A DNA stretch of 64,000 bases. Source: Chitinophagaceae bacterium. Lineage in GTDB: Bacteria; Bacteroidota; Bacteroidia; Chitinophagales; Chitinophagaceae. Within the stretch, counting starts at the first letter, position 1; each line of letters starts with the position of its first letter. The stretch lies in assembly GCA_947381435.1 (NCBI GenBank), contig CANCVE010000006.1:1-64000 (forward strand), in the 5' to 3' direction. A program made the translations under genes and the position numbers. Under the pieces are notes generated by a model. It was not told the origin of the DNA. It made no database searches and worked only from the letters and a program-made list of their open reading frames with translations. This document shows, piece by piece, positions 12,273 to 57,050 of this stretch.

Positions 12273-12503
12273 GCCCATAATATCACATCTAATCTTCCCA
12301 ATATGAGACGTCATCTTCCCAATATGAGACGTCATCTTCCCAATATGAGGCGTCTTCTTACCAATATGAGACGTCATCTTACCAATATGAGACGTCATCT
12401 TACCAATATGAGACGTCATCTTACCAATTCGAGATGTCGTTTTACCAATTCGAGACGTCGTTTTACCAATTCGAGACTTCGTTTTAAAAGTTTGAGATTT
12501 ATT
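12273..12503. repeat. Array A: 21-bp tandem repeat, about 10-11 units
   Basis: Units recur every 21 bases; the core is CCAATATGAGACGTCATCTT with a GACGTC palindrome. Nine good units run from 12294 to 12482; the flanking unit on each side is degenerate. The last three good units shift together to AATTCGAGACGTCGTTTTAC, so the array has two sub-families. It begins about 40 bases upstream of the beta-helix gene start and ends about 55 bases past the SusD stop. Because 21 is a multiple of 3, open frames run through it on both strands (heptapeptides like HIGKMTS and NMRRHLP); I regard these as by-products. Confidence 0.95.
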
Positions 12504-12557
12504 ATTCCATTTTTAAACCTTAAACAATCTCACATTAACTCTAAACTAACAACTAAC

Positions 12558-14264
12558 CTACCACCCATTGTTCTGAGTGAGTTTTGTGTTTAAATCTCTT
12601 TGTGATTGTGGGATTGGGAATAGTAAATATTTGCTATTGAAAGGTACAATACTCATTGGATCTACTCTTCCGGCACTCCAGTTCTTCGCTACTTTATCAT
12701 ATACAGGTAACCCTTGAGGTAAAGTAGGTAAAAATGTTTTAAACTGATATTCGTACATGGTCGATGAGCCATCATACCCTTTCATACGTACCAAATCGAA
12801 CCAACGCTTGCCTTCACCAATAAACTCTAATCCTCTTTCATCAAAAATTTTCTTACGAAAATCATCTTGAGATAATCCAGCCTCCACATCAAGGGGTAGT
12901 GCACTTGGTGTAGTTAGCCCCGTATTCCTTGCTCTTGCCCTCAATTTATTAATATCTGCCAAAGCAGTAACATCTGGATCACCAAGATATTCATTTCGCG
13001 CCTCTGCCCTTATTAAATAAATCTCTGCCAAACGAAGTACAAAGAAATCATTTTCATGATCCGATGCATCAAGTCCTTTGGGGTCTCTAAACTTATTTAT
13101 GTAAGGAAATTGACTAGGGAAAGAATCATTTTTAGTAGCAGAAATGGAAGGATAAGACACATACTTTGTACCAGAAGTTGGGGTAATATTCCAACTGGTC
13201 AAAAAGGTTGTTTTAGCTCGGTAATCATTAACATAATCGCCCGAAGTACAATAATCGTAAAACCAAGGATGCACTTTGTAGCTACCACTACCTGCACCCA
13301 AACCGCCTACTACAGCCTTAGTCTGATTGCCAGTAACGCCACCCATAGTTGGCGGCATAAAACGTACGGGATATTCTGAACCTTGCGAATTGCTTGAACT
13401 TACCAATCTATCTCTGGTAAACCTAATGCCATAAATAACTTCCGAACCATAAACATTCGACTCATTTTCTACATTCCATAGGTCGGCATAATTTGGCACC
13501 AACTTATATCCCCCGCTATTAATAACTACAGTGGCGCAACTATCGGCAGTTTTATAAAAAGCGGATGCATTTTTCCCCCTTTTTTCCAAATCATTACCAT
13601 AAGTAAGATAAGCCAGAGATTGCAATGCTTGAGTGGCACCTTTGTTGGTTAGCCCAATGCCATCGGGTTTATTTTTATAATCGAGGAGACTTGCCGCACG
13701 TTTTAAATCAGAAAAGATGAGTGCATAAACCGAATCAACAGGATCTCTTTTTACATAAAAATTAGTAGTGTTGCTTGTAGGCTGTGTTCGGATAGGAATG
13801 GCTCCATATAAACGAACAAGATCAAAATAGCATATAGCCCTAAAAAACCTAATTTCTCCCTCTTCCCTAACCTTCAAAACAGAATCAGAACCAGAAGTTG
13901 TTTGGATAGAAGGCAGCTTTGATAGGAGGTAATTATAATTATTTATGTTGGCATAGTATGCACCATAAACTGCCGAAACAGAAGAAGAGGTAGCATCATA
14001 AATTTTGTTAGCATAAACCTGAAACTCAGTAGAAGTTGAGCCCATATCGTCGGCCGCTAGTTCTAAAATCTTCAATAACTCTTTCTTGTATAAGTCTGTA
14101 CCCTGAAAATTGCCATAATTGCCTTGTATCAATTTCAGTACATCGGCTGTATTGCTTACAGAATTATTCAGGGTCTGCGTGTCATATAGTTTTTCGTCTA
14201 AGCTTTTGTTACACCCTACCAACGAAAGTGATAACAGACCAAAGAAGTATATAAACTTTTTCAT
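12558..14264 (-). CDS. SusD/RagB-family glycan-binding outer-membrane lipoprotein
   Basis: The protein has 568 residues. The start is set at the ATG at 14264 because MKKFIYFFGLLSLSLVGC gives a proper lipoprotein signal with Cys18; a frame 69 bases longer adds nothing signal-like. The N-terminal alpha-helical TPR-type half contains the typical 'REEGEIRFFRAICYFDLVRLYG' region (about residues 130-150). The C-terminal RagB/SusD half has LRLAEIYLIRAEARN and FDERGLEFIGEGKRWFDLVRM. SusD proteins bind oligosaccharide on the cell surface and close over the SusC channel. It follows SusC by 69 bases, the standard order. Confidence 0.95.
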   Translation of the reverse strand: MKKFIYFFGLLSLSLVGCNKSLDEKLYDTQTLNNSVSNTADVLKLIQGNYGNFQGTDLYKKELLKILELAADDMGSTSTEFQVYANKIYDATSSSVSAVYGAYYANINNYNYLLSKLPSIQTTSGSDSVLKVREEGEIRFFRAICYFDLVRLYGAIPIRTQPTSNTTNFYVKRDPVDSVYALIFSDLKRAASLLDYKNKPDGIGLTNKGATQALQSLAYLTYGNDLEKRGKNASAFYKTADSCATVVINSGGYKLVPNYADLWNVENESNVYGSEVIYGIRFTRDRLVSSSNSQGSEYPVRFMPPTMGGVTGNQTKAVVGGLGAGSGSYKVHPWFYDYCTSGDYVNDYRAKTTFLTSWNITPTSGTKYVSYPSISATKNDSFPSQFPYINKFRDPKGLDASDHENDFFVLRLAEIYLIRAEARNEYLGDPDVTALADINKLRARARNTGLTTPSALPLDVEAGLSQDDFRKKIFDERGLEFIGEGKRWFDLVRMKGYDGSSTMYEYQFKTFLPTLPQGLPVYDKVAKNWSAGRVDPMSIVPFNSKYLLFPIPQSQRDLNTKLTQNNGW

Positions 14265-14333
14265 TGTGCAAATATGAAATTGTGATAAAAAAATATGCGT
14301 AATAATATTATTTAATCTTAAAAACTGAAACAA

Positions 14334-17300
14334 TTAAAGTCCCACATTTACCCCAAAGGAATACGTTTTGTATTGAGGGATAGTACCATAATCAACGCCT
14401 TGATTAATAGCATTTAAACCAAAGCCACTAACTTCTGGATCGAACCCTTTGTATTTAGTAATCACAAAAAGGTTGGTAGCATTTACAAACAGTTTAAGTG
14501 AGTTTAGGTATTTAATCTTTTTAACATTGACGTTGTAGGAAAGATTTACATTCTTTAACCTAATAAATGAGCCATCTTCTATTAGTCGGTCACTTACACG
14601 TTTATCAAACAAAGAACCAGTTGTTTTTGCCCTAGGATAATAGTTGCTTGTGCCTTCCCCTTTCCAACGGCCATCCCAAACTTCTTGTCGCAAGTTTCCT
14701 GAGGTACTATAAACTAATCCGTCACTGTAATATCTATTAAGATTTAATATAGATTGACCAATCTTTCCCATGATGAAGAAACTTAATTCTAGTGATTTGT
14801 AGCTGAATGTATTGGTAATGCCGAAGATGTATTTAGGATTTGGATTACCTAAAATGGTTCTGTCATCAGCATCTATTTTGCCATCGCCATTCAAGTCTGC
14901 ATATTTTATATCGCCGGGGGCAGGATTTACTGCATCCGTTGGGCTTTTAGCTATTTCAGTTTTGTTTTGGTAAATACCAATGGTGCGATAGCCATAAAAA
15001 GAACCAATTGCATTACCCGGCACAGCAATAGTCCCGTATTGGTCGAGCGCTGTAGGGAGCAAAGTACTTCCGTTTATTTGACCATTCTCTCCTAAATTGA
15101 TTACTTTATTTTGATTGAAAGCAATATTTGCTGCTATCTTCCATCCAATTTTTTTCGTAATGGCAAATCGAGCATTGGCTTCAATTTCAATACCACTGTT
15201 TTCTATTTTCCCCAAATTGGTGGGATACGAAGAAAACCCAACATCTGAAGGAATTGGCAAGTCTAACAATAAATCAGTAGTCGTCTTTTTATAATAATCA
15301 ACCGTTAGTTGGTATTTGTCTTTTAAGAAGGCAATATCAAAACCTACATCAAACTGACCCGTCTTTTCCCAATGAAGGTTAGGATTAGCAAAAGAGTTCA
15401 TGTATACACCACCCACTATTGTATCATAACCTGTACCTGCCCTACTTGGTATAAGCAATGCTTGGGTGGAACCTACGCCAATGTTTTGATTGCCCGAAAA
15501 ACCATAGCTTGTCCTGATTTTAGCATTGGAGATAAAGCCAGCTTTGTTCATGAATTGTTCTTTATAAATGTTCCAACCAAGGGCAACAGAAGGAAAAAAA
15601 TCCCATTTATGACCAGCGGCTAATCTAGAAGAACCATCTGTTCTACCAGTAAGGGTCAGTAGGTACTTATCATTAATGGTATAGTTTACCCTAGCCAAAT
15701 AAGATTGCAGATACCATTGTTGGTATTTTGTTACTGGCAAACTCACAATATTTGAAGCGTACGCAAACCCGTCTGCACCAAGATTGTCATTGGGAAAACC
15801 TTTAGCACTCATGCCACTAGAACTCGATTCCCAACTTTGCGATGTATAACCAGCCACTGCATTCAAGCGATGTCCTGCATGTAACAATTTTGTATATGTA
15901 AGGGTATATTCAGTAAGATAATTAACGTTTTTATTATCTACTTTGTATGCCTGTCCGCCTACTAAATCTCCCGTGGTTGTTCCTCTACCAGAATAATTGG
16001 AACTCTTGTTATTATTCTGATTAATACTCCCACTTACTTTTAATTTTAATTCATTTGGAATGATACTGTACTCGCCAAATAAATTAACCAATACCAATGA
16101 CCCAGATGTTTTACTAACAGAATTTGCCACTACTGAAACTGGATTGTTTTGCAGAGCGATATTTATTTCACCATCTGGTGTAAAAGGATTACCCAATGGT
16201 GATGATCTAAGGGCAGTAGTAACAACCGACCCTCCTTGCACAGGATGATTAGTAGATTGTAAGCCCTGCCTATTATCAGATAAATTTAGTTTTGAAGTAA
16301 TGCCTATCTTAAAATTATTCGAACATTGTCTGTCCAGGTTAAAGGATACCCCTTCCTTTCTAAAATAAGTATTTCTTACCACGCCAATAATGTCTGTATA
16401 GTTAGCACCAATGGCATACTTAGTACGATCATCTCCACCGGATAATGAAAGCTGATGATCTTGAGAGGAAGACTTAGCAAAAACCATGTCTTGCCAAAAA
16501 ATATTGGTAAGGCTATCTATTTGTCCAAGTCTATATCTGCTATACATCCCTTTGGTACTATCCGAGTTGTAAGTTGCTTCGTTTGCGTAGGTAGCAAAGT
16601 CTTTAGAGTTTAGCATATTGATCCGCTTAGGCAATTGCGAAGCATCATTTCTGTAAGCATAAGACAGCCTATCCTTCCCTGTTTTTCCCCTTTTGGTAGT
16701 TACCATCACCACCCCATTGGCACCTCTAGAACCAAATATGGCTGTAGAAGATGCATCCTTTAATATTTCAATAGACTCTATATCGTTAGGATTCAGGTTA
16801 GCCAACGCATTTGTTGGTTGCTGCTGACTAGTAAAATAGTCGGCACCTGTTTTTGCATTAACTGTATTGTTATCAGACTCAATGGGCACACCATCTATAA
16901 CAATTAAGGGCTGATTAGCCCCTAATGAATTTGTTCCCCTTATGTTAAAAACGATTCCAGAACCAGGGTCACCAGAAGTTTGCGTTATGTTTACGCCCGC
17001 CGCTTTTCCTTGTAATAATTGTTCGAAAGAACTAGAAGTTTGTTGAGCAGCATTTTCTAGTTTTACCTTAGAAACAGATCCAGTAAGGTCACTCTTTTTA
17101 ATTGTCCCATAACCTACTACCACCACATCGTCCAATGCTTTAGAAATAGAAGTAAGTGAAACATTGGAAATAGCGCTATTGCTAACAGAAACTTCTATTG
17201 GTTCAAAACCAGTAAAACTAAAAACCAAGCTTGCCTTATTATTGGTTACTTTTATTTTAAACTCGCCTTTTGCATCACTAGCTACTGCATTTGGTTTACC

Positions 17301-23524: not shown

Positions 23525-23935
23525 AGTATTGTTTGCAAAAGCTGCATCTGGTGCCCAAAGTTGTCTACCTGCCCAAGGTATATTTTTTATGTGCAAAGCA
23601 ACGCCATTATCGGTCACTTTTCCACCTATTGAATCCATTGAAAGCACATGAAAATCCATCATATTAAAATGGTCACCGTTATCATTTTCAGCAATTCCTG
23701 TAGCAGTATCATGAGATGGATAAATGTAAATTTTATTGTTAAACACATGCGCAGAAGGGTCGGCGGTATAAATGTGAGATACCAAGGGTTGTGAAATTGG
23801 CTTTAATTTCTGGGCAATTACGTTTGTACAAATGCACAATGTAATTCCAAATAAAAGTGTTTATAATGCATTTGTCAATGTAAGAAACAACCCAGTGTAA
23901 ATGACTGCGAACAAACATTTTCTAACACCATTCAT
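23519..23935 (-). pseudogene. GH43-family gene remnant (N-terminal fragment with internal stop)
   Basis: The open part (to 23839) encodes HIYTADPSAHVFNNKIYIY and SHD, the N-terminal strand of a GH43 arabinofuranosidase/xylosidase-type beta-propeller, then WAGRQLWAPDAAF before stopping at 23519. Family members have roughly 300 or more residues; only about 105 remain. Reading upstream in the same frame, the natural ATG is at 23935 (MNGVRKCLFAV) and the leader is cut by an in-frame TAA at 23861-23863. Removing that stop gives one continuous leader ending NVIAQ. Both the nonsense codon and the missing 3' two thirds show a dead gene. The DNA past the break is the terminator shared with GH95. Confidence 0.85.
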
Positions 23936-24172
23936 AGAAAGGAAATGAGAATGAGAAGAATATTTTTTTTTCATACAACTATTAATTAAAATAAAAAATT
24001 AAGGTTTTGCTTGGCAAATTTCTTTTTTCATGTTCAAGCAAAATCAAATAACACCTAGAAACTAGGCTGTTGACAAGTAAGAAAGACTGAAAGTATTTAT
24101 ATCTACTGATTCGGGCGTAAATTATTTTTCAGTTTTTTTAAGATAATAATCTTTGCTGTTCAATGCGAAGGA

Positions 24173-27620: not shown

Positions 27621-27855
27621 AGTGTTACAGTAGCGCAAATACAAATCTAAGGGAATTTGTTTCCTAATTTTCAAACATAAGATTATTAATAGTAAGCATA
27701 GGCAACATTTTAAAAGTTATCCATCCAAAAGTAAAGTTCATTTATCCTCTAATCAGTATTATCTATCCCAATCCCATAACTCATTTTCCCTTCCCCAATC
27801 ATCTCATTATCAGTCCAATAAAACTCTTTATAAGCTACAATTATCTCAATACATT

Positions 27856-28122
27856 ATAAATGAACGCGTTTAGTGTCATCAGACTTCGTTGATGACACTA
27901 AACGCGTTCATTTATGCCATCTAACGAAGTCTGATGACATTAAATGGACACATTTAACCCATCTAACGAAGTCTGATGACACTAAATGAAAGCGTTTACC
28001 TCGTGTAACGAAGTCTGATGATAGTAAATGAAAGCATTTAGTGTCATCAGACTTCGTTGATGACGTTAAATGTGTTTTTAGCCCCATATATCGAGATTTG
28101 ATAGCACCAAATGGGTTTATTA
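27856..28122. repeat. Array B: 42-bp repeats with a perfect 25-bp inverted repeat
   Basis: The array opens with a perfect inverted repeat, arms 27856-27880 and 27891-27915 around the 10-base loop AGACTTCGTT. It is followed by units starting TAACGAAGTCTGATGACA at 27922, 27964 and 28006 (spacing exactly 42), then a second, imperfect hairpin near 28034-28067 with the core again in the opposite orientation. A worn unit starts near 28089 (TATCGAGATTTGATAGCACC). Forty-two is twice the 21-bp period of other arrays here. It sits in the gap between the leftward hypothetical gene and GH106. Confidence 0.93.
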
Positions 28123-39438: not shown

Positions 39439-39660
39439 TTAGGTATTAAAGCTTGTATTACATGTATTACAGCTTCTATTACATGTAATGAAAGCGCAAT
39501 TACATGTAATACAACTCCTAGTACATGTCTTGTGAGAGTTTGTACATGTACAAGAGCTCCAATTTCATGTATTGCAAGTGTAATTACATGTAATACAACC
39601 CCTATTACATGTATTACAGGCGTTATTACATGTAATACAAGCTTTAGTGGGTGTAATAAA
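39439..39660. repeat. Array C: 21-bp tandem repeat with 12-bp palindrome, about 10 units
   Basis: ACATGT cores recur at 39460, 39481, 39502, 39523, 39544, 39565 (as TCATGT), 39586, 39607, 39628 and 39649 (worn), always 21 bases apart. The best units carry the perfect palindrome ATTACATGTAAT. A degenerate unit precedes them. The array lies about 75 bases upstream of the start of the 1541-residue lyase gene. It has open frames by chance of its 3-fold period (peptides like ITCNTTP). Confidence 0.95.
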
Positions 39661-44030: not shown

Positions 44031-44279
44031 TTAGTTGAGCTTTAATGCTGAATTCTTTTTAGATGCATAAGCAATTCCACTTGCCGCTAAAATCAAACTC
44101 ATGCCGCCATCAAAAGGAACAACAGGACCACCATCTCCACTCGGACCATTGCCGGGAGAACCTGGTCCACCAATACCTGGATCGTCGGCAGGGCTTTGTG
44201 CATTAACGGTTGTATTTACACAGAGGCTAAGCATTAAAGCTAAACCAAATATCCCCAGTCTTTTTGCTATTGTAAGCAT
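44031..44279 (-). CDS. Small secreted protein with PID-CTERM-like tail
   Basis: The 82-residue protein has a signal peptide (GIFGLALMLSLCVNTTVNAQ), a short Gly/Pro/Asp-rich linker (GGPGSPGNGPSGDGGP), the motif VPFDGG, a hydrophobic segment (MSLILAASGIAYA) and a basic end (SKKNSALKLN). This resembles the small Bacteroidota proteins with a PID-CTERM-type putative sorting tail. It has essentially no body between signal and tail. It lies downstream of the giant T9SS protein and is separated from it by array D. Confidence 0.75.
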   Translation of the reverse strand: MLTIAKRLGIFGLALMLSLCVNTTVNAQSPADDPGIGGPGSPGNGPSGDGGPVVPFDGGMSLILAASGIAYASKKNSALKLN

Positions 44280-44341: not shown

Positions 44342-44512
44342 GATAAAAACGACTTCTTTGAAGGGCTAAAAGAACACTTTCAAGAGCTAAAAAAACACTT
44401 TCAAGAGCTGAAAGAACTCTTTCAAGAGCTGAAAGAACACTTTGAAGAGCTAAAAGAACTCTTTGAAGAGCTGAAAGAACTCTTTGAAGAGTCCAATGTT
44501 CTCAGTGGAGCG
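44342..44512. repeat. Array D: 21-bp tandem repeat, 7 clear units plus worn ends
   Basis: Unit core CTTTCAAGAGCTGAAAGAAC; the GCT recurs at 44365, 44386, 44407, 44428, 44449 and 44470, and a worn GTC at 44491, each 21 bases apart. Arms CTTTCA and TGAAAG, and AAAGA and TCTTT, give every unit a dyad. It is about 63 bases upstream of the small protein start. On the plus strand it is open from an ATG at 44294 and reads as heptads of ELKELFQ type (95 residues), discussed in the findings. Confidence 0.95.
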
Positions 44513-44630: not shown

Positions 44631-47600
44631 CTAAGGTTGAACTGATAAATTTGATTGATAAACAGCCTGACCATTTGCATCTCTTACAGTTACACTATAA
44701 GTTCCTGCTGCTATGGTACTGTTAACTGTCAATGCATGACTACCGTTGCCACCTGCATGGCTGATAGCAACTTCTTGAACTCTTTGTCCTAATACATTAT
44801 TAATAACAACGGTATAATTACCAGCCGCTACATTAGTCAAACTAACATTTACCACTTTCGTTCCCTTCAAAGGATTAGGGTAAAGGCTGTAAGACGGTAA
44901 ACGGTTATCGGAAGACACTTTAACAATGTTACTATAGCTAACTGTTCCTACTTCGCTAATTGCCTTGATACGATAGTAATTGGTTGCGGCACTGATGTTA
45001 TTATCAGAAGTATTATAGCTAGCTATAGATGTATTCTTTGCATTTACCTGACCAATCTTAACGAAGCTCTTAGCATCGGTAGATTTCTCTACTTCAAATC
45101 TAGAAACTCCCTTCTCTCCTACTGTGTTCCAACTGACATTGGCAATCTTATTGTTTAAAGTTGCAGTTGCTACTATGCTGTTTACTGCCAAGGTGGTTGC
45201 TTTGAAAACAATGCTGAACCTGTTTGAATAAGTTGCAGCTATCGAAGTATCTACTGTAAAATTAATTGTATCTATACCAGTTGATAACGACTTGATAACA
45301 CCTCTATAGCTATCTTTCAACATTGGCACGAATCCATTAATTTCATATACACTTGCATTAATTACCAATTTATAGTTCTTACCACTCAACTTACTCAAGG
45401 CAATCGGCAATACATCACTAGCGGTGGCTGGTAATCTACCATCAATACTCAAGTTTTTACCCTTATCAGAGATGAACAAATTATCGTTTGCACCCGTAAA
45501 CTTTAACGCATCTTGTGGTCCATAAAAGGTATTACCGAAGCTAGCTGCAAAAGCAATAGCTGCTCCATCCTTACGGGCATAAAAAGTAACACTATCCTCT
45601 TTCATTAAAGAAAGATAAATCTTACTCATTGGTTTACTTACCCCAAAAACAGAAGTCTTAGTAGAATTTACAGCTTTACAATTTTCTGTAAACACAACAC
45701 TTGGGCTTGCTGAACTACTCTGTACAAAGAACGCTTGGCCCGGTTGTATGTAACCCGCTGCATTATTTGTAGTTCCGTTAAATGAACCTGGATATGTTGA
45801 ACCTCCTACAGTTGCACTACCAGTAATAGCATTGAAAGCAATATACTTACCAGAAGCACTAGCCGTAGGATCGAGATACCAATAGCTACCATTTACATTG
45901 CTCGAGTTACCAAACACTGTGTTTGTATTTCCTGTTTGTGTTCCAGTTACACCAGTTCCCCAAAGTACTGGACATACATAAGGATTAGCAATCATACTGA
46001 ATCCATTTGTAGTTGAAGCAGTAAGACCATTTGTAGAAAGCAAAGTTGCTGCACTTCCATTAACTGTAGCTGTAACACCACTAGGATCGTAAGTTACATC
46101 GCCATAAACAAGGTTTCCAGTGGCTCGAAGTTTGGTATCATTTACCATTCTTAACCCAATATTATAATAGTCAACAATTGGTGTAGTAGCCAAATTAAAA
46201 CTTCTATCACCTCTAACCAGTACCCTATATCCACTAAAGGCATCTAGTGTAGTGGTTTTAGTATTGGCAATGGCGTTAAACCCAGCATTATATGCAGAGC
46301 CATTAGTATAACTATACGCAGAAACATTGCCGTTAATACTGTAATCTAAACCATTGGCATCTGGTGCAGGTTGTGAGTTGTAGAAACCACCAGAATTGGC
46401 ATGTAACGCTGTTGTACCTGTTATAAAGATTCCTGACCCACTAGTTAATGAACCGTTTTCTTGCCAGTTTAAGAACATGCTTCCCGCATTATAAACTTCA
46501 GGAGCAATATCACGATAGCCACGGAAACCAGCAGGTATAAATCGTTCTACCTGAACAGTACCTTGTAATGATCCCAAAACCTTGTCAACAATTGCAGTAT
46601 TTGAAATAGAAGTTGATTTTAAAATAAGTCTATTTGTACCTGTATTAAAGTTTCCGTTCGAAATAGTTAAAACCCCTGTAAGAGATTGTGCTCCTCCAGT
46701 GATAGTAGCCCCTAAACTATTGTTCAGAGTCAGATTAGTTATTGATCCATTTCCAGAGATCGTTTGAGCAGCAGTACCTACTAAATTGGTATTACCAGTA
46801 CTAGTAATTGAGCTATTGTTTGTAAGAGTACTAAATAAATTGGTAGTACCAGAACCTGTAATTGTGCCATTGTTTGTAAGTGCTCCAACTAAATTAAATG
46901 TTCCATTATTTGTAACTGTACCTCCAGAATTTACTGTCATAGTAGTAGGAGAATAGAATGTCTTACCGGAAGGAATAGTCACTTTACCGTTGTAGGCACC
47001 ATTATTCAAGTTAAATACTGGATAGAATGACAAGCTACTTGAAGTTGAACTTGTTGCTGCTGATGAAATAGTAATTGAACCAGTACCGATTGTACTGATA
47101 GTAGCACCAGTTGGAATTCCAGAGCCAATAACAATCATTCCAATATCCAACCCAGTTGTTGGACATGTAACAGTGGTACTAGCAGAAACTAGTGTAGCAC
47201 TAACATTCAATACAGGTGATAATGATCCTGATAGATTAATGTTATTACCAATTGAAGCTGCAGAGGTAGTATGGTTAATAGTAAGATTACCAGGAATTGT
47301 AATTGTACCTCCACTTGCAAATGCTATATTATTAGTTGTCCTTGTACCTCCAATACTTAAGCTGTAATAATTAAAGACAGGGATAGTCTGTGTATTAGAA
47401 TTACTGAAAGTAATTGTTCCTGCAGTTACACCAGTAGTGTTATTCGGTGTAAATATGTTCTGCACAGTCATACCGCTACCTGCTTGCATGTTAGTGTTAG
47501 TGCCAAATGATACATTATAGAATCTCATGTTTGCACAAGCAGGTAAAACCTGATTTGTACCAGTAAAATTGACTGTTGTTAAAGTAGCTAGCACGAAATT

Positions 47601-50600
47601 ATTAGTTGGTGACATTCTGAATGTTCCTGAAATATTAAACACTGCAGTGGAAGATGAACCGCCAATTCCATCCAATTGTATCGAGTGACCAGTTACTCCA
47701 TTATCAACGTCTAAGTTATAGTAAGTACCAGGAACTAAACGGTTATTTATCGGACCTCCATAAACAACGCTTCCTCCCCATGTCTTATTTGCAGGATATT
47801 GATAACCTCCTGCACCATTACTCATAGTCAATAATGTCCCTTGTATTCCACTTGGATTAATAGTGGATGCAGAAGCAATACCAAAAGTTGAGATATTTAA
47901 GGTATGACCACTACCAATTAACAAGGCACCATTAACTGTAATTACACCACTTGTCGTATTTGTTCCACTTGTACCGGCACTATTCAATGTGCCATTGTAA
48001 GTACCTGCCATCACTGTCTGTGTACCAGATGCGTTGTTATAAGTAACTCCAAAATTCCAAGTTCTGCCTGTTGGTATCGGTGTAGAAGTAGTATTTTGTG
48101 TTTTAAGCGTACCAGTTCCAGTACCACCACCGTTTGAAGTAGTGAGTGAAGAACCTGTTAATTGATTGCTAACCAAATCTAAAGTAGCACCATCATTTAT
48201 TTGTAAAGAGGTATTGACTAATAATGCTCCAGCAGCTGTAGAAATGATTCCATTACTGTTTGCAACAATTAAGTTGGTAAACGTAAATGCAGGAACACTT
48301 TGGGCAGAGCTGCCATTAAAGCTAAATGTATTGCTAGTAACTACATAAGAACCCGATGTAAGTGTACCCGGAGTAAATGTTCCAGCTACACTTATAGTTC
48401 CACCACTTATCAATGTTACATTACTACCAGTTCTTGCAGCAACAGTAAGGTTATTGTAAGCGCCTGCCACTACCGTCTGAGCACCTGTTCCAGTATAATT
48501 TACGGAACCAGCCCAAGTTACTCCAGAAGGTATTGGGGTAGTAGAATTTGCACCTGCAAGTAATGTTCCTGAACCCAACTGTTGAGTCATTGCACCACTT
48601 AGGATATTAGTTCCCATATCTAATGTTGATCCAGATGCTATGGTCAATTGACCATTTACTGTTAAAGCCCCTGGCGCAGTATTAGATGAAGCATTGTTGA
48701 TAGTCAGATTATAATATGTACTAGAAACAGGTGTAGGTATTGTTTGAGCAATAGTGCCATTAAACACTACGGTTCCAGCAGAAGCAGTTAGTGTTCCTGT
48801 GTTTGTAAATGTGCCCTTAATAGTCAAAGTTCCGCCAGAGGCCATAGAAATTGATCCTGCATTGGTTAGTGCAGTATTAACAGTTAATGAACCTGATGCA
48901 CCATAAGTAATACTCGAACCACTCACCACAGTCACATTAGTAGGCGTTTTGGTAACTGTACCATTAATGGTAATTGCATGTCTTACAAACACATTTGCAC
49001 TTGCTACAGGCACAACATTTCCCAACCATGTAGTAGTAGTATTCCAATCAGATGCTGCATTGGTAACATAACCAAGTACTGTAAATGAAGTATTATCTGA
49101 TTGTGCACCATCAGTAACTACCAAATTACCTGACGCAGCACTTGCTGCAGGAACTTTGGCTGTTAATTGAGTCGTTGTATGTGTAAGAACGGTTGCGGCG
49201 GCTCCGTTGATAGTAACGGTAGTACTACCTGTAAAACCATTTCCGTTGATAGTTATTGTTTGTCCATAATAACCAGTTGCTGTAGCCTGTCCTGCGAATG
49301 TAGGGCTTGAAGCGGCAACTGCTCCTAATGAAACACCAGGTATTAAACCTACTGCAAAGTATTGTGTAGCACCAGTACCTATTGTTGCAGTACTAGTTAC
49401 TGTACCAGAGGAAGATGAACCTCCTTTACTAGTATAAGTTCCACCTGTGCTACGTGCTACTACACTACTATTAGCTACAGAAGCACTTGTTAACGCTACG
49501 TTTCCAACTCCGGTGTAATTACCAGTTGTATTTAACGACCAATATTCGCCGTTCACTGCAGATAAAGTACCATCTACACCTCCGGTGCTTCCAGCATCAA
49601 AAGCCTCAACTTTTGCCGAAACTGTACCACTACCTGTAGTAGGGTTAACTAAAGCAAATTTCAAGTACGTTCCATTCTTACCAACAGGGTAAGTATAAGT
49701 AGCCGCACTTGAGAAATTAGAAGGCAAATTCCATTTCAATGGCCCTTCTACATACGAGCTGCTATTACCGCCACTTACGCCACTATTTGAAGTGTTGGTT
49801 ATGGTTAGTAAATTAGAACTTGTACTTGTTAGTACACCATTTGTAAGTGTGAGAATATTACTAACGCTAACAGGACTACTTAAGGTAACACCTGCAGCAT
49901 CATTAACTTGCAAATTATAGAAAGTTTCTGGGGTTGTAATTGAAGACGCTGAACTACCTCCAAATATTACTGTATTCGAACCAGGTGTAAATGCTCCGTT
50001 ATTTGCCCAGTTACCATTTACTTGTATATCACCTCCCAAAGCAAGTGTACCATTCGTTATAGTCAAATCTCCAACTACAGTTCTTAATATACCAGGGGTA
50101 GTAACTGTTCCACTTACAGCGTCAATCGTAACTGTTTGAGGAACACCGCTTCCCAATGTACCACCTGCTATCCACTCATTACCAACTGTTGCAGTGGCCT
50201 TGTAAACTAATGAAGAAGTACCAGAATAAACTGGAGAAGCAGTAACACTTCCACCATTTATTTGCAAAACACCGTTTTGAGTAAGCCCACCAGTATTTGT
50301 GTAAGTTGATCCTAATGATAGGGTTGCACCATTACTAATAGTAGCTAATCCACTAGCTGTAGTAGCAGCATTAATATTCAGTGTACCACTAGTAACGTTT
50401 AGTATTTGATGCGTAAATGGTGAGGAAATAGTAGAACTGCCACTACCATTTAAATTTAATGTGTTACCTGATGTGGTAAAACTAACTGCACCAGTTTGAC
50501 TAGTACTAAAAAAACCAGCTACATTTATTGTTCCGCTAGGTAAAGTAATAATTGGGGTTCCAGACCTTGTTCCAGCAATTGTTAGATTATTGTAATTGAA

Positions 50601-53600
50601 TAACAATACACTTTGCGCACCTGTACCATTATAGCTAATTGTACTTCCTGTTGTTACAAGAGCAGCAGGTGAAGTGTAGGTAGCCGAATTGGTAAAGGTT
50701 CCAGCAATCCCTATTGTACCACTACTTGCCAATGTAACGTTACCACTCCTACTAGTACCACTAATAGTCAGGTTATTGTAGTTGAAGGCAGGAACAGTTT
50801 GTGCATGTGTACCGGTAAAGTTAATTGTACCTTGTGTAGCACCTGCTACACCATTTGTATTAAAATTATTCTGAATAGAAACTGAACCAGTAGGGAAGGT
50901 AGTTCCTGTTCCTAGTGTTAGATTATAGAAATTGGTATTACCAGGTACAGATTGACTGCTACCATTGAATATTACAGTTGTAAAATTCGGAGTAGAAATT
51001 GAACTACTAGCGTTGTTTAAAGTAACAGTTCCATTGAATGTATAAGTAGCACTAGAGTTGGCTACATTATCCATTACAATGCCATTATTAATACCAAAGT
51101 CTAAATTCACATTATTAAAAGTACCCGGAGTAATACGCGTATTGTTTGTGGTAGGGGCATAATACTCTAAAGTACCTCCCCAAGTAAGGTTAGCAGGGAA
51201 AGGATACTGATAAGCAGTGGTGCTGTTGGTACCGCTACGTATAGTTCCATTAGTAGATGATGTATTCAATGTACCAGTGGAAAAAATACCTGTAGTAGCC
51301 AAATCAAGTGTTGCACCAGAATTTACTATCAAAGTACCGCCACCACTATTGTTACCCATATAAACTTGTCCACCGTTTAATAAGAATGTTCCGCTATTAA
51401 TATTTAAGGTACCACTACAAGCCCTTCCAGAATTATTCACACTTGTTATGGTGTTACCACTACCTGCATCTACAGTTACATTAGGTGGTATGCCTAATCC
51501 TACTGAAGGAATGGCAACTACCGATGCTGTAGTAGTACTAGTACCTGTAACTGTACAACCCGTAGTAGTATAACCAGATCCTCCTGAAGTTACAGTTACA
51601 CCAAAAACACCCAAACTAGCAGTTGCAGATGTTAATGAACCTCCACCTCCAGTTACATTAACGGTAGGAACAGAGGTGTATCCAGAACCATTGCTCGTAA
51701 CTGAAATGCTTAATACCCCAGCTTTTATATAAGCTACGGCTGTAGCACCAGAACCGCCGCCGCCTGTAATGCTTACAGATGGTATACTTGTGTAGCCCGA
51801 AGAACCTACTACGGCAATTGTTGCTACACCCAAACTTGCAGTAGCAGTTAAACCTGTACCACCAGTGCCAGTAATGGTTGGTACGGAGGTATAGCCACTA
51901 CCAGGAGCAAGTATTGATATGGTATTGATGGCACCAGTTCTAAAGTTTGCCCATTCGTTTCCTACTGTTCTAGGTCCAGCCTTGTACACCAATGTAGCAC
52001 TGCTACCATAAGTAGGCGCTGAACTAAGTGAACTAGTTGTAGTATTTAAAACTAAGTTGTTATTGATTGTTGGAGAACTTGGCGTAGAAGAAACGGTTAA
52101 AGTACCATTGAGTGTAATATTATAAAATGAAGGTGTAGTTCCAGTAATAGTACCTGTACCACCAAATATAACAGTACCAACTCCAGCTGTAAACGTGCCT
52201 GAATTTGCAAAGCTAGCACCACTTGATAGTGTTAGTGTACCACCCGAAGTTTGATTGATAGTACCACTATTACTTAATGAAGTTGTAATGGTTATAGAAC
52301 CAGATGCACCAAAAGTAAGACTACTGCCCGATTGTACAGTAAGCGTACCAGGATTGTTGGTAGCTGTAGCAGCTAAAGTAACCGCATTATTTACTGCAAC
52401 TGTTGCCCCGCTTGATGGCACATTACCACCTAACCAAGTTGAACCTGTATTCCAATCTGTAGAAGCGTTAGAAACAAAACCTGTAACTGTAAATGCAGAT
52501 GATTTTGGTGTTACACCATCAGTTATTACAACATTACCACTCAATGCAGCATCAGAAGGAACATTTACTGTAATTAATGTTGATGATTGAGATACAAAAG
52601 ATGCAGCCGCAATACTTGCAGAACCATTAACTGTCAAAGAAGTAACAGTATTTAACCCCGAACCATTAATGCTGATTGTTTGTCCATAATAAGCTGCTGC
52701 CAATCCTCCATTTTGAAATGAGTAGGCAGACGTTGGTACTATGGAAGTGATACCATAAGCCTGTGGCAAAATACCTAAAGCAAAAAATTGATTTGAAGAA
52801 GTAATTGGTGAACTACTCATTAAAACAGAATTGCTTAGAGCGCCTGCTCCTATTGAAGAATAAGTACCAGCTTGAGTACCAGATGTTCCAATAGTATTAT
52901 TGTTAGATCCTGAAGCTGTTGCACTTGATAGTGCAATATTATCAGCACCACTAAAACTGCCAGTATAAGCTAAACTCCAGTATTCAGAAGTGTTTATAGA
53001 AGCTAAAGATGCATCTATTGAACCTCCAGTTAGAGATTGAAACGCAGTAGCAGTTATTGTTGTTGCAGAACCTCCAGTTGTTGGATTAACTAAACTAAGT
53101 CCATAATAATAATCAGTTCCACCAGTAAATAATCCTATAGGAAATACTAATGTAGAGGGCGTACTATAGCTTGCCGGCAAACTCCACCTGAATGGTCCAT
53201 TTATGTAAGATGTAGTGCTTGCAGTAGAAACTGTAGCACCAGATGACGCAATTAATATATTAGTAGCAGTTGTTGTTACTCGTCCAGAGGTGAGTGTCAA
53301 TGTTCCTGCTACAGTAACTGGCATACTCAATGTAACACCAGCACTATTAGCAATTGTAAGGTTATTCACACCACCAGGGTTTGGATAAGTAAAGTTATTT
53401 ATGGTTTGTGCAGAGGTACCTGAATAAACTACAGTAGCAGAAGCATTAGAAGCATTGATGCTTCCTGCGGCAATACCACTTGTAATGTTTACTGCTCCCT
53501 TCAAGGTAAGTGTATTAGCTCCAACTGTAAGCACTGTAGTACCATTGCCAAATGAAAGTGTACCACCAATCGTAGCATCCCCACCTAATGTTACACCTGC

Positions 53601-56297
53601 TGTATTTGTAAGTGTAACAGCCCCATACGTTGCAGTTGGCATTGTTTGAGCCCCAGAACCTAAAAATTGTACAGACCCTGTATTGCTTGCTCCAGAATAA
53701 TCTAAACTTGAAGTTATTGGTGTTGTTGAGGTTGACGTAGTACTTATAGTACCACCATTTGAAACCGCAGCAGTTGATAGCGTAAAGGCACCTAAAGCTA
53801 AAGTACCACCAGAAGTAGTAGTTAGCGTACCAGTAACTGTAAGGTTGGCATCATTGGTTAATGAACCAGATGCATTTAAAGTAGTAAGGTTGGTATAAGA
53901 TGTTGCACTAACTATATGTCCAGATGTACCAGCATACTGCACTATACCAGGCCAAGCCTTACCAGTTGGTAGTGGAGTGGTGCCTGTATTTGAAGTTTTA
54001 ATGATACCAGAATTAGTTAATGGAGATAGAGTTCCAGCAGTGTTTTCCGATATAGTGAAAGTACTTGCATTTAGCTGACCACCAGCATTATTAACCACAA
54101 GACCATCTAGTGATACATTCGAACCCAAGGTATAAGTGAAAGCACCATTTACTGTAAGCGTGCCTATCTTTCCAGTTGTTCCTAGAATTTCATTACCTGA
54201 TGTTACAGCACTATTAATAATTACCGCAACCCTATCTGTAGATGCAGACCCAAATACAGGTGCTGCAGATAACGAGCCTGCTCCGCGACTTATAGTTGCT
54301 CCATTATTTAATGTGATTGTAGCAGAACTATTGTTCAATGTCCCTGCTTTTAAAAATAACGAATTGCCATTTTTTATTGTAATTGCTCCAGTTAGAGCCA
54401 AGGTACCTGTAGCACTGTCTGTGAAATCTTTTAAATTTGTACCAGCACCTGTAATTTCAAAGGAAGCTGTCGTTGTTGACGAATTGAAATAATTAAGGCT
54501 AATAGGACTGCCTGACCAAGTAGGACTGTTTGTATTAAAACCTCCGGTACCTGTTGCTGTTTGAGAGAAATATGAAACAATTACAGGATTTGTTCCATCA
54601 CCAATGGTCAAGCCTGTACCATTGAACGCACTTCCATTTGTAAAAGTTAAACGTTTTAAAACATTAACCTTGCTAGAGCCATTAACGGTTACTGTGAACA
54701 CAGTAGTGGAACCTCCTGTTAATTCCAAGCTGTCTATATTTATCACACTACTAGTATTTGAATTTATAAAAGCAATCTGATTTCCTGTAACCGACCTTGC
54801 TAGCTGTAATTTCCCACCTGTAGAAACCAAATTGACTGTAGTTGCAACGGCTGCTGAAGAGTTTATTGCATTACCACCGCCAAATGAATAAACATTTCCA
54901 CCATCATCAATCTGATTGGTGTATGGCCCACCTGATGCAGGGCTAACTGTTAGTGTACCTGCGAATGTGATTTTCTTATTAGTACATGTTCCAAATTTTA
55001 TACTACAATTAGCAAGTCTTCCAATGGCTATATTTGTTAAACTACAGGCATTCGCATTAGAAGTTGGGAAATTAAGAGTTTGTACACTACCCACATTTAC
55101 AGAACCATTAAATTGAATGCTACCGCCAGTGAATACAGAGGTAGTTGATGGGCCGACACCTCCGCTCAACGTACCTCCAGAGGTAACTAAAGTACCTGTG
55201 TTGCCAGATGTTGATGTACTTGTAGCGTTAAAAAAAAGAGAACGAGCATTTAATGCCAAATTACCAGATGTTTTCAAGTCAAGTTGCCCATTTACCTGAA
55301 AGTTCATATTTGCAGCTAAAAGAATATTTGCTCCGTTTGAAATATCCATATTACCAACACTCAATGTACTACCATTATTTGTTAGGGCAATGGCATTTAC
55401 TAAGTTTGCAGTAAAACTACCACCAGTACCACCAGCTACGGTCACTGTTGGTGCACTTGTATATCCACATCCACCTTGTGAAATAGTAAAAGCTTGTGCT
55501 GTAGTGCTTTGAGCACCAGCAGCAGTATTACTTGCAGTGGCTGCAATACCTGCAAAAGTAAAGACAGCATTACCCCCTGTTGCGTTAACGGAGCCTCCAA
55601 AATGAGTTGGTGCTACAGTACCACCAGTAGTTCCTGAACTAATTGTATAAAGATACCCCCCATTAGAAACCTGCTGACCAGTAGTGTAAGTGGTACCGGT
55701 TACCCAAGCAGTACCAATTGTTGTAGAAGTTATTGTATATCCACTACCTGCAGAACTTACACTAATATAGCCTAATGAAGATTTCGTAGCTGTACCATCC
55801 ATCACAATTTTCCCTGTACCTGAATGTACAGTAACACCACCTGTATTGGCGGCAGCTAAAGATCCTTTTATAATAAATGTATTACCACCATCAGCCAAAG
55901 TACAGCTCGCGGACAATGCCACATCGTTGTTTACAGTCAAGGTTGCACTGTTACTGCTAAAGGTCACAGTAGTAGCAGTTGAAGCTTTTTGGTTGATGTA
56001 TAAATACCCAATAGTTTCAGTAGAAAGATTAGAGATAGTAATAGCAGAGGCTGTAACTGCGCTACCAACATTATTTCCATCAATTACCAAAATATCATTT
56101 GTTGCTGGAGTTCTGGTTGTACCAGTACCTCCTCTCGTTGTACTCCATGTAGAACCGGTATAACTACCACTAGCCCCACCTACCCAGAAGTACGTTGTTT
56201 GTGCATGTAGCAATGCAGTAAAGCAAAGCATAACCACCAACAACGAAATTTTGCCTAACCTAGAGGCACTAGTCTTTTTTGAGAAACTCTGTTTCAT
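44631..56297 (-). CDS. Giant T9SS-secreted beta-strand repeat protein with two IPT/TIG domains
   Basis: About 3888 residues from the ATG at 56297, chosen because MKQSFSKKTSASRLGKISLL leads into a clean signal peptide (LLHAQ); the frame opens further upstream without signal-like sequence. Most is Thr/Ser/Gly/Asn-rich beta-strand repeat. IPT/TIG domains lie near residues 1200 and 2340 (YYGQTISINGSGL and YYGQTITINGNGF). Each is followed by a related module (DWNTGSTWLGGNVPSSGA and DWNTTTTWLGNVVP). A cluster of SGYTSVPTVNVTGG-type repeats lies near 1470-1620. The C-terminus has an FN3-like domain (residues near 3760) and a T9SS sorting domain (LYPNPLKGTKVVNVSLTN). It is probably a surface adhesin or matrix protein; no catalytic motif is visible. 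Confidence 0.88.
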   Translation of the reverse strand: MKQSFSKKTSASRLGKISLLVVMLCFTALLHAQTTYFWVGGASGSYTGSTWSTTRGGTGTTRTPATNDILVIDGNNVGSAVTASAITISNLSTETIGYLYINQKASTATTVTFSSNSATLTVNNDVALSASCTLADGGNTFIIKGSLAAANTGGVTVHSGTGKIVMDGTATKSSLGYISVSSAGSGYTITSTTIGTAWVTGTTYTTGQQVSNGGYLYTISSGTTGGTVAPTHFGGSVNATGGNAVFTFAGIAATASNTAAGAQSTTAQAFTISQGGCGYTSAPTVTVAGGTGGSFTANLVNAIALTNNGSTLSVGNMDISNGANILLAANMNFQVNGQLDLKTSGNLALNARSLFFNATSTSTSGNTGTLVTSGGTLSGGVGPSTTSVFTGGSIQFNGSVNVGSVQTLNFPTSNANACSLTNIAIGRLANCSIKFGTCTNKKITFAGTLTVSPASGGPYTNQIDDGGNVYSFGGGNAINSSAAVATTVNLVSTGGKLQLARSVTGNQIAFINSNTSSVINIDSLELTGGSTTVFTVTVNGSSKVNVLKRLTFTNGSAFNGTGLTIGDGTNPVIVSYFSQTATGTGGFNTNSPTWSGSPISLNYFNSSTTTASFEITGAGTNLKDFTDSATGTLALTGAITIKNGNSLFLKAGTLNNSSATITLNNGATISRGAGSLSAAPVFGSASTDRVAVIINSAVTSGNEILGTTGKIGTLTVNGAFTYTLGSNVSLDGLVVNNAGGQLNASTFTISENTAGTLSPLTNSGIIKTSNTGTTPLPTGKAWPGIVQYAGTSGHIVSATSYTNLTTLNASGSLTNDANLTVTGTLTTTSGGTLALGAFTLSTAAVSNGGTISTTSTSTTPITSSLDYSGASNTGSVQFLGSGAQTMPTATYGAVTLTNTAGVTLGGDATIGGTLSFGNGTTVLTVGANTLTLKGAVNITSGIAAGSINASNASATVVYSGTSAQTINNFTYPNPGGVNNLTIANSAGVTLSMPVTVAGTLTLTSGRVTTTATNILIASSGATVSTASTTSYINGPFRWSLPASYSTPSTLVFPIGLFTGGTDYYYGLSLVNPTTGGSATTITATAFQSLTGGSIDASLASINTSEYWSLAYTGSFSGADNIALSSATASGSNNNTIGTSGTQAGTYSSIGAGALSNSVLMSSSPITSSNQFFALGILPQAYGITSIVPTSAYSFQNGGLAAAYYGQTISINGSGLNTVTSLTVNGSASIAAASFVSQSSTLITVNVPSDAALSGNVVITDGVTPKSSAFTVTGFVSNASTDWNTGSTWLGGNVPSSGATVAVNNAVTLAATATNNPGTLTVQSGSSLTFGASGSITITTSLSNSGTINQTSGGTLTLSSGASFANSGTFTAGVGTVIFGGTGTITGTTPSFYNITLNGTLTVSSTPSSPTINNNLVLNTTTSSLSSAPTYGSSATLVYKAGPRTVGNEWANFRTGAINTISILAPGSGYTSVPTITGTGGTGLTATASLGVATIAVVGSSGYTSIPSVSITGGGGSGATAVAYIKAGVLSISVTSNGSGYTSVPTVNVTGGGGSLTSATASLGVFGVTVTSGGSGYTTTGCTVTGTSTTTASVVAIPSVGLGIPPNVTVDAGSGNTITSVNNSGRACSGTLNINSGTFLLNGGQVYMGNNSGGGTLIVNSGATLDLATTGIFSTGTLNTSSTNGTIRSGTNSTTAYQYPFPANLTWGGTLEYYAPTTNNTRITPGTFNNVNLDFGINNGIVMDNVANSSATYTFNGTVTLNNASSSISTPNFTTVIFNGSSQSVPGNTNFYNLTLGTGTTFPTGSVSIQNNFNTNGVAGATQGTINFTGTHAQTVPAFNYNNLTISGTSRSGNVTLASSGTIGIAGTFTNSATYTSPAALVTTGSTISYNGTGAQSVLLFNYNNLTIAGTRSGTPIITLPSGTINVAGFFSTSQTGAVSFTTSGNTLNLNGSGSSTISSPFTHQILNVTSGTLNINAATTASGLATISNGATLSLGSTYTNTGGLTQNGVLQINGGSVTASPVYSGTSSLVYKATATVGNEWIAGGTLGSGVPQTVTIDAVSGTVTTPGILRTVVGDLTITNGTLALGGDIQVNGNWANNGAFTPGSNTVIFGGSSASSITTPETFYNLQVNDAAGVTLSSPVSVSNILTLTNGVLTSTSSNLLTITNTSNSGVSGGNSSSYVEGPLKWNLPSNFSSAATYTYPVGKNGTYLKFALVNPTTGSGTVSAKVEAFDAGSTGGVDGTLSAVNGEYWSLNTTGNYTGVGNVALTSASVANSSVVARSTGGTYTSKGGSSSSGTVTSTATIGTGATQYFAVGLIPGVSLGAVAASSPTFAGQATATGYYGQTITINGNGFTGSTTVTINGAAATVLTHTTTQLTAKVPAASAASGNLVVTDGAQSDNTSFTVLGYVTNAASDWNTTTTWLGNVVPVASANVFVRHAITINGTVTKTPTNVTVVSGSSITYGASGSLTVNTALTNAGSISMASGGTLTIKGTFTNTGTLTASAGTVVFNGTIAQTIPTPVSSTYYNLTINNASSNTAPGALTVNGQLTIASGSTLDMGTNILSGAMTQQLGSGTLLAGANSTTPIPSGVTWAGSVNYTGTGAQTVVAGAYNNLTVAARTGSNVTLISGGTISVAGTFTPGTLTSGSYVVTSNTFSFNGSSAQSVPAFTFTNLIVANSNGIISTAAGALLVNTSLQINDGATLDLVSNQLTGSSLTTSNGGGTGTGTLKTQNTTSTPIPTGRTWNFGVTYNNASGTQTVMAGTYNGTLNSAGTSGTNTTSGVITVNGALLIGSGHTLNISTFGIASASTINPSGIQGTLLTMSNGAGGYQYPANKTWGGSVVYGGPINNRLVPGTYYNLDVDNGVTGHSIQLDGIGGSSSTAVFNISGTFRMSPTNNFVLATLTTVNFTGTNQVLPACANMRFYNVSFGTNTNMQAGSGMTVQNIFTPNNTTGVTAGTITFSNSNTQTIPVFNYYSLSIGGTRTTNNIAFASGGTITIPGNLTINHTTSAASIGNNINLSGSLSPVLNVSATLVSASTTVTCPTTGLDIGMIVIGSGIPTGATISTIGTGSITISSAATSSTSSSLSFYPVFNLNNGAYNGKVTIPSGKTFYSPTTMTVNSGGTVTNNGTFNLVGALTNNGTITGSGTTNLFSTLTNNSSITSTGNTNLVGTAAQTISGNGSITNLTLNNSLGATITGGAQSLTGVLTISNGNFNTGTNRLILKSTSISNTAIVDKVLGSLQGTVQVERFIPAGFRGYRDIAPEVYNAGSMFLNWQENGSLTSGSGIFITGTTALHANSGGFYNSQPAPDANGLDYSINGNVSAYSYTNGSAYNAGFNAIANTKTTTLDAFSGYRVLVRGDRSFNLATTPIVDYYNIGLRMVNDTKLRATGNLVYGDVTYDPSGVTATVNGSAATLLSTNGLTASTTNGFSMIANPYVCPVLWGTGVTGTQTGNTNTVFGNSSNVNGSYWYLDPTASASGKYIAFNAITGSATVGGSTYPGSFNGTTNNAAGYIQPGQAFFVQSSSASPSVVFTENCKAVNSTKTSVFGVSKPMSKIYLSLMKEDSVTFYARKDGAAIAFAASFGNTFYGPQDALKFTGANDNLFISDKGKNLSIDGRLPATASDVLPIALSKLSGKNYKLVINASVYEINGFVPMLKDSYRGVIKSLSTGIDTINFTVDTSIAATYSNRFSIVFKATTLAVNSIVATATLNNKIANVSWNTVGEKGVSRFEVEKSTDAKSFVKIGQVNAKNTSIASYNTSDNNISAATNYYRIKAISEVGTVSYSNIVKVSSDNRLPSYSLYPNPLKGTKVVNVSLTNVAAGNYTVVINNVLGQRVQEVAISHAGGNGSHALTVNSTIAAGTYSVTVRDANGQAVYQSNLSVQP

Positions 56298-56690
56298 ACT
56301 GCTTTTTTTAGAAAACGAAAACGGTAAAGAAGAATGGAGGTTATCCCTCATAAATTTTGAAATTGTTGTTACAATCGTATACATAGCAAGCGTGTGTTCG
56401 TTATAAACATTAAATACCGATGCAAAGTTACCAAACACTATGCTGCATCCACTTGTTCGGATGTTGCAACTAATTGTCTTTTTCGTTCAATAACGGTCAA
56501 TTGGGTATATTCCAGTATTTAGCACTACATCACTTCTTTCAACAGATGTTGGTCATTGTTATGAAATAACATTTTCTATATCTCCTTTCCTTTTTCTTAA
56601 AGAACAAGCGGTACCATGTTTATTACGTGCCTATGAAAACCTATGTGTTGAATCTTTTTTTACTTGTCTACAAGTCCAATAACTCGAAAC
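56298..56690. other. Divergent intergenic region before array E
   Basis: About 390 bases between the start of the giant gene and array E, with no gene and no clear hairpin. It should hold the giant gene's promoter and leader. Confidence 0.5.
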
Positions 56691-57050
56691 ATTAATGGCA
56701 AACCTAGTAGACTCAGATGGCAAACCAAGTAGATTCCGATGGCAAACCGAGTAGACACGAATGCCAAACTAAGTAGACACAGATGGCAAAGAGAGTAGAC
56801 ACGATGGCAAACAATGTAGACGTCGATGGCAAAGGGAGTAGACGCTGATGGCAAAGGGAGTAGACGTCGATGGCAAAGAGAGTAGACGCGAATGGCAAAG
56901 GGAGTAGACGCGAATGGCAAAGAGAGTAGACGCGAATGGCAAAGAGAGTAGACGCGACTGGCAAAGGGAGTAGACGTGAATGGCAAACCGAGTAGACATC
57001 GATGGCAAAGAGAATAGACGCGAATGGCAAACAGAGTAGACATTAATATG
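56691..57050. repeat. Array E: 22-bp tandem repeat, about 16 units
   Basis: GGCA cores recur at 56697, 56719, 56741 and so on to 57026, with 22-base spacing everywhere except one 21-base step at 56785-56806. The consensus is ATGGCAAAGAGAGTAGACGC followed by GA, with GACGTC in some copies. Units in the middle are most alike and the edges (56697-56763) are more worn. As 22 is not a multiple of 3, open frames change at every unit and are not coding. The array lies between divergent genes, about 105 bases upstream of the GH141-like start and about 395 upstream of the giant gene. Confidence 0.95.

Follow-up and report, generated by a model that had tools for sequence, protein, structure and literature searches.

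Five tandem arrays between the genes of the window

The stretch analysed here, called the window, covers contig positions 1–64000 (64,000 nucleotides) of contig CANCVE010000006.1 of a Chitinophagaceae bacterium, within a 4.88-Mb assembly in 231 contigs. It is a glycan-utilisation and type IX secretion system (T9SS) region, and five tandem arrays without strand assignment, A to E, lie between its long open reading frames (ORFs). Arrays were called with Tandem Repeats Finder (TRF) at a score of 80, their layout was checked row by row, and autocorrelation was computed over lags 5–99.

Array A, 12292–12498: 21-bp unit, 8.9 copies by TRF, units at both ends degenerate
Array B, 27857–28072: 42-bp unit, about five copies in the layout and 3.6 by TRF
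Array C, 39443–39644: 21-bp unit with 42/84-bp higher-order structure and ATTACATGTAAT-type palindromes
Array D, 44355–44491: 21-bp unit, 6.5 copies, called by TRF also at 42 and 63 bp
Array E, 56694–57041: 22-bp unit, 15.9 copies, the longest array of the window

All five arrays, which a first-pass annotation of the window had picked out by inspection of the letters, proved real by TRF and by autocorrelation. The strongest lags were 21 for A, 42 for B, 42 (then 84 and 21) for C, 21 for D and 22 for E, in agreement with the shared period of 21–22 bp (42 bp in B) that the annotation had proposed, and the pattern turned out to hold genome-wide. At least four copies are clear for A, C, D and E, and the count for B depends on whether the layout or TRF is followed. 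The statement that every long gap carries one array held for five of the seven window gaps of at least 300 bp, genes being taken as ORFs of at least 100 aa; those at 23840–24172 and 62494–62816 are empty.

The ORFs that overlap A, C and E are all short (118, 141 and 127 aa), and periods of 22, 41, 43 and 64 bp, as found here and elsewhere in the genome, are not multiples of 3; judged from their sequence, the arrays are non-coding. The units adjoin directly without spacers, which together with the lack of any Rfam family match in a scan of the window rules out a CRISPR array. Heptamer repeats of the STRR/TAACTGA type were ruled out as well, since no 7- or 14-bp lag appears among the ten top lags of A–E. 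Array E had no match in a plasmid collection, and the scanned flanking genes contained no replication-initiator domain, although no search aimed at initiators was made.

A common period class in the genome and the genus

The census covered the window and, from each of 20 further long contigs of the same genome, the initial 20 kb (464 kb in total). Of 35 intergenic arrays called by TRF in this sample, 33 have a period of 21–22, 41–43 or 64 bp, hereafter the class: 15 arrays at 21 bp, two at 22, four at 41, nine at 42, two at 43 and one at 64, with exceptions at 14 and 71 bp. Four more arrays are coding and have periods of 54, 60, 87 and 156 bp. When the window was left out, 28 of 30 intergenic arrays still fell in the class. 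The density of about 7 per 100 kb extrapolates to about 340 arrays per genome. A genome-wide period of this kind is far beyond chance. The first-pass annotation had suggested such a census of the genome and its relatives, and in it the periods formed a 21/42/64-bp class and were not scattered; the arrays are real, widespread and not explained by ordinary microsatellite drift.

Loci are named below by stretch and position (L numbers), and relatives' genomes by G numbers. Several arrays lie at contig ends (L088:1-122, L152:1-149, L047:17926-18122 and L037:5-229). Arrays thus seem to break these assemblies, so that array counts and copy numbers are lower bounds.

The class extends to the genus and was absent from the neighbouring genera as sampled, the samples per genome being small throughout. 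Among 12 genomes of genus relatives (29 stretches, 394 kb), 14 of 22 intergenic arrays were in the class, the remainder having periods of 14 bp (four), 9 bp (three) and 37 bp (one); G004, G006 and G008, with 41 kb together, had none. In 500 kb from 22 genomes of the order that belong to other genera and families (four of these genomes represented by less than 5 kb), none of seven intergenic arrays was in the class. A 23-bp period with three copies, one sequence found in two stretches of G020 from this outer sample, falls in the published range of 20–23 nt. After arrays had been masked, the weak self-similarity of intergenic DNA still peaked at 21 and rose at 42 and 14 in this genome and the genus; outside the genus, residual signals at 21 and at 42 were each seen in 4 of 88 gaps (family) and in 0 of 42 gaps (order sample).

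Sequence families and their dispersal

Clustering of 56 units at 76% identity gave 48 families, 28 of them from this genome. No motif was common to the 48 family representatives, the commonest 4-, 5- and 6-mers staying within the shuffled 95% maximum, and a common protein-binding motif was dropped as a candidate; some 5-mers were individually over expectation (GACAA, 11 against 3.5 expected). A period of about 21 bp or its multiples, spread over so many families without excess k-mers, bears out the earlier proposal of an element type set by spacing and not by sequence. REP/BIME elements carry a conserved REP palindrome and are associated with a TnpA-REP transposase; the comparison made here was confined to the unit sequences, which are not conserved between families. 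Among the 32 units of 21 or 22 bp, 15 of 496 pairs were at least 66% identical (1.9 expected from shuffles), eight of the 15 lying below 71%, which indicates that families grade into one another.

The two families that were followed across genomes are largely species-specific. The E family occupies eight loci in this genome, all with a 22-bp period; in six relatives searched, it was found at one locus in G009 and weakly in G001, and in none of the other four. The A family has six loci here (A and five others), five of 21 bp and one called at 42 bp, and in the same number of relatives it gave one weak match in G007 and none in the other five. An all-22-bp E family next to a mostly 21-bp A family points to a period that is inherited with the family. 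The earlier statement that unit sequences are unrelated is thus accurate within the window, but the A and E families recur elsewhere in the genome and B-like arrays occur in G003.

Within a family, comparison of 300-bp flanks returned matching pieces of only about 20–45 bp, save for one duplicated segment (L168/L169, 178 bp at 95%). These matches indicate that the families have dispersed mostly without their flanks. One flank piece joins the E locus L161 of this genome to the G009 locus, and the two are probably the same locus. DNA similar to B, covering the array and part of its left flank (window 27778-28089), is present at several loci of G002 and G003, among them several G002 contigs and G003:C256 (L150), and array B may belong to a dispersed element.

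Other dispersed elements were noticed in the same comparisons. One of about 550 bp with an internal 41/42-bp array lies at L067:1281-1884 and in L131, L132 and L133, with copies on three G005 contigs. A repeat of about 150 bp (L067:12796-12948 and L055:18711-18842) recurs in G005 in tens of copies that are about 80% identical, and a few copies are present in other species. A palindromic element of about 70 bp (L059:11626-11701 and 16011-16076) has tens of matches in G005, G010 and G001, lying on either strand.

Turnover at matching gaps

Fourteen array-bearing gaps were compared with the matching gaps of relatives. Seven had a class array in at least one relative (one of them weak), four had none and three were unclear; in six of the seven shared cases the unit had changed. 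Comparison of units, which the first-pass annotation had envisaged between strains and which was run here between relatives, thus yields matching gaps that carry arrays with changed units.

In G005 the A gap holds a 21-bp array, and 14 of 21 positions of its unit agree with A. Identity to G005 is about 95% towards the downstream gene (9694-12234) and 74% towards SusC/SusD, and this jump at window 12234-12558 looks as if the gap of array A were a recombination junction. At the place of D, G005 carries a degenerate 21-bp array with a different unit, and a 21-bp array lies upstream of its relative of the giant gene next to E, where the far flank differs. The surroundings of L067:10913 are 93% identical to G005, and the array has 42 bp here and 21 bp there; the unit of that G005 array is 90% identical to the unit of L055:12130 in this genome. 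At L059:573, G010 has a 21-bp array of a different unit, and G005 and G007 have none. A weak 21-bp array with a different unit and 4.3 copies was found in G001 for L061:582, with none at that place in G005, G010 and G007. Conservation was seen at L067:1587, where the array shared with G005 lies inside the dispersed element of about 550 bp.

No array was found in relatives for L067:18292, L055:12130, L055:19060 (G005 only) and L061:15417 (G005 and G007); in these cases homology mostly stops at the gap, so that the matching gap is not certain. The unclear cases are C, for which the G005 contig breaks, L059:13055 and B. For B, the gap in G007 measures 345 bp and has no array, and on a G003 contig there is a 42-bp array resembling B, with a changed unit and about 95 bp of the left flank of B at 81% identity. 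Changed units, higher-order repeats and degenerate array ends back turnover by slippage or recombination, in line with the slippage-driven element that had been among the first suggestions.

Self-complementarity of the arrays

Whole arrays were folded and compared with period-preserving column permutations (30 per array, both strands). As controls, 92 pseudo-arrays from ordinary intergenic DNA were folded on one strand with 20 permutations; two of the means were undefined because a control had no variance. At least one strand folded with z < −2 in 25 of 46 arrays and none had z > +2. On the plus strand, z < −2 was reached by 22 of 46 arrays and by 7 of 92 pseudo-arrays (Fisher P 1e-7). Both strands scored alike on average, as a DNA dyad would. 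Consensus units of 41–64 bp had more stem than their shuffles in 10 of 23 cases (P ≤0.05); for units of 21/22 bp, with 3 of 24, there was no clear excess.

Within the window the signal is driven by B (z about −12), a strong hairpin former in which some segments are inverted by eye, and by C (−6 to −10). Array D is marginal (−1.9 and −1.4), with an imperfect dyad CTTTCA-N5-TGAAAG seen by eye, and A and E fold no better than chance. Palindromic cores, which the first-pass annotation had given to A, B, C and D, are therefore present in B and C and marginal in D; A has only the 6-bp GACGTC with a stem at chance level, and E has no palindrome.

Within-array covariation was positive in 16 of 41 arrays and negative in 9, with the best register picked on the same data. 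Between relatives, the stem CTTTCA-N5-TGAAAG of D reads CAGTCA-N5-TGACTG in its counterpart D', and TAAATG..CATTTA of B reads TAAATA..TATTTA in the G003 array, both stem sides having changed in each case (by eye). These two-sided changes are at most suggestive of compensation.

Relation to known repeat systems

The first-pass annotation knew of no described system of this kind. One exists: Subirana and Messeguer have reported tandem repeats in non-coding DNA of bacteria that keep a constant size while their sequence varies, of 20–21 or 52 nt in Bacillus and 20–23 nt in many bacterial groups, and whose function is not known (PMC8161180); satellites in prokaryotes have also been surveyed (PMC6749651). 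The satellite families are described there as species-specific, 20–21 nt was read as two helical turns, and a role in the nucleoid or as small RNA was proposed, so that both the two-turn remark and the nucleoid hypothesis were already in print (PMC8161180). The 52-nt satellites of Bacillus coagulans are reported to be transcribed (PMC8161180, PMC8625621).

The arrays studied here belong to this described kind. They share with it the non-coding nature, many unrelated families of the same length in one genome, species-specific families, partial conservation between relatives and a repeat size of 20–23 nt or a multiple (33 of 35 sampled intergenic arrays). They differ in occurring in a Chitinophagaceae genus, in units of 41–43 bp (15 of 33) and 64 bp (1 of 33) that are about as common as monomers (17 of 33), in the self-complementarity of about half of the arrays and in the changed units at matching gaps. 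Repeats of one species often have a common short sequence, which does not define them (PMC8161180), and in this respect the present genome, where no such motif was found, is unlike many of the published species. The authors' detection rule asks for at least four regular repeats per array (PMC8161180), and several sampled arrays here have fewer than four copies of their 41–43-bp unit. What is added is a clear case in a Chitinophagaceae genus, with absence in sampled neighbours, the 41–43/64-bp units, changed units and self-complementarity in about half of the arrays. Among the titles listed by the literature searches there was no report on this genus.

Borg archaeal tandem repeats are likewise fast-evolving, independently arising, in many cases intergenic and nearly absent in host genomes, but about half of them lie in ORFs, and the passages at hand do not describe one fixed unit length (PMC9879509). 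Heptamer repeats of the TAACTGA type are also abundant intergenic direct repeats and occur in some Bacteroidetes (PMC4679880), and 7-bp arrays are present in this genus too; the heptamers differ by their fixed 7-bp sequence (PMC4679880) and by the lag that A–E lack. The 7-bp arrays (TGGTTAC and GACTTAC types) were seen at window 9583-9688 and 6986-7025 and at L032:8008-8089 and 11254-11379. They occupy gaps in corresponding regions of this genome and G005, and one directly adjoins the 21-bp array that matches A.

Gene neighbourhood

Domain scans of the genes beside the arrays gave the following assignments.

9694–12234, minus strand: beta-helix protein with T9SS sorting domain (Por_Secre_tail), downstream of A
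12558–14333, minus strand: SusD-family gene, other side of A
28434–31508, plus strand: GH106 rhamnosidase-family gene, downstream of B
34741–39366, minus strand: multidomain protein (CHB_HEX_C, PA14 and Laminin_G_3 matches), downstream of C
44631–56438, minus strand: giant gene of 3935 aa between D and E, T9SS sorting domain below the Pfam cut-off
57156–60167, plus strand: beta-helix protein with T9SS sorting domain, other side of E

Among 17 neighbouring proteins scanned, most match glycan-degradation, SusD, TonB-receptor plug, beta-helix or T9SS-sorting families, and two match nothing. The giant gene contains a 54-bp coding tandem repeat (window 46776-46895). Beside its 3' end, at window ~44035-44279, lies by eye a gene for a small secreted-type protein, and the DNA of this pair of small and giant gene has counterparts at many loci, in G005 as well as in other relatives.

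In the own-genome sample, 27 of 75 gaps of at least 300 bp hold an array, against none of 51 gaps measuring 100–200 bp. Sorted by gene orientation, the gaps of at least 200 bp with an array number 17 of 59 for tandem, 10 of 24 for divergent and 2 of 11 for convergent gene pairs, a difference that is not significant (P 0.32); the count uses those 29 of the 33 arrays that have a called gene on either side. As to the proposed position upstream of genes for exported proteins, a T9SS sorting domain was found above cut-off in one gene beside A and one beside E and below it in the giant gene; orientation gives the proposal no support. A promoter or exported-gene element is accordingly unsupported, though divergent gaps have the highest share.

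Discussion

The period, the dispersal, the changed units at matching gaps, the higher-order structure and the absence outside the genus in our samples were observed directly. We give about an even chance to the reading that the arrays form a satellite library, that is, constant-size, variable-sequence non-coding satellites whose period is inherited. A monomer of about 21 bp would be amplified head to tail, with units of 41–43 and 64 bp also arising, some of them visibly dimers or trimers; slippage or unequal recombination would homogenise array interiors, and pieces of arrays would seed unrelated intergenic gaps, mostly without flanks. What would keep the period narrow is mainly the descent of arrays from other arrays, together with substitutions that outpace indels and poor homogenisation between units of unequal length. 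Such descent would give 21 bp with a spread of about 1 base per monomer, resembling the observed periods. The period may be favoured further by its match to two helical turns and by hairpin potential, via replication slippage or a bound protein. Regulation of specific genes would not be implied.

Several points weigh against such a library. Most families have no detectable mutual relation, descent alone does not predict the excess of self-complementarity, and sizes near 20–23 nt in many bacterial groups (PMC8161180) reach beyond descent within one genus. The ratio of indels to substitutions, at 66/1027 (0.064) in arrays and 16/175 (0.091) in the rest of the intergenic DNA, shows no significant deficit in arrays (P 0.26). 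Of 29 indels in the 21/22-bp arrays, 14 arise because TRF gave the 22-bp array E a 21-bp consensus, and 11 come from L059:573; without these two arrays there are 4 indels to 438 substitutions, though array detection penalises indels. Isolated two-copy duplications of 21 bp were not seen among only 10 isolated duplications, three in this genome (11, 13 and 42 bp) and seven in relatives (11, 18, 19, 22, 23, 44 and 84 bp); in these few events there was no birth bias toward 21 bp.

Alternatively, the arrays could be architectural elements defined by spacing, which we consider rather unlikely: a lineage-specific protein would polymerise along them, touching the DNA once every two or four helical turns, or the phased repeats would themselves bend the DNA, and the period and not the sequence would be selected. 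Periods near multiples of 21 fit this idea. In a wedge model (Bolshoy parameter set), 21/22-bp units gave their maximum curvature at the observed period and lost curvature when the unit was changed by 2–5 bp, as in any phased repeat, and 10 of 42 arrays were more curved than 90% of their unit shuffles against about 4 expected (binomial P 0.007). This excess is slight, and for units of 41–43 bp the modelled curvature stayed flat when the unit length was shifted by several bp. If helical phasing alone mattered, periods of about 31–32 and 52–53 bp should be allowed as well, and none of these is present among the 35 arrays of the own-genome sample. The families have no common motif, arrays come and go between species, and the indel to substitution ratio does not differ significantly between arrays and other intergenic DNA.

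Hairpin-assisted replication slippage or template switching as the direct mutational source, in this lineage, of functionless 21- and 42-bp units appears improbable to us. It would account for the self-complementarity, the higher-order repeats and, by eye, the inverted segments in B and the palindromic units of the L067:10913 array, but isolated duplications have no peak at 21 in the small sample of 10 events, and E, the longest array of the window, has no hairpin. The least probable reading is that transcribed arrays act as strings of RNA or single-strand hairpins, such as regulatory or protein-sponge RNAs, for which the folding excess over controls and the transcription reported for the 52-nt Bacillus coagulans satellites (PMC8161180, PMC8625621) speak, and against which stand the chance-level folding of A and E, the likeness of both strands on average and the lack of an Rfam match in the window.

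For practical purposes, such arrays sit at contig ends and yield short false ORFs, and caution is warranted where they occur. It is unlikely, but worth stating, that unit length is itself a selected trait, with a trans-acting factor of the genus, be it a protein or a replication process, that needs or makes two-turn repeats in monomer or dimer steps, favours self-complementarity and leaves the sequence free. If this were true, the several hundred arrays per genome would be interchangeable architectural sites. Some bacteria carry satellites of constant length and free sequence for which there is no explanation, and with about 7 arrays per 100 kb, close relatives with arrays at matching gaps and sampled sister genera that have no arrays of the class, this genome offers a natural system for asking whether their length is inherited, mutationally generated or selected.

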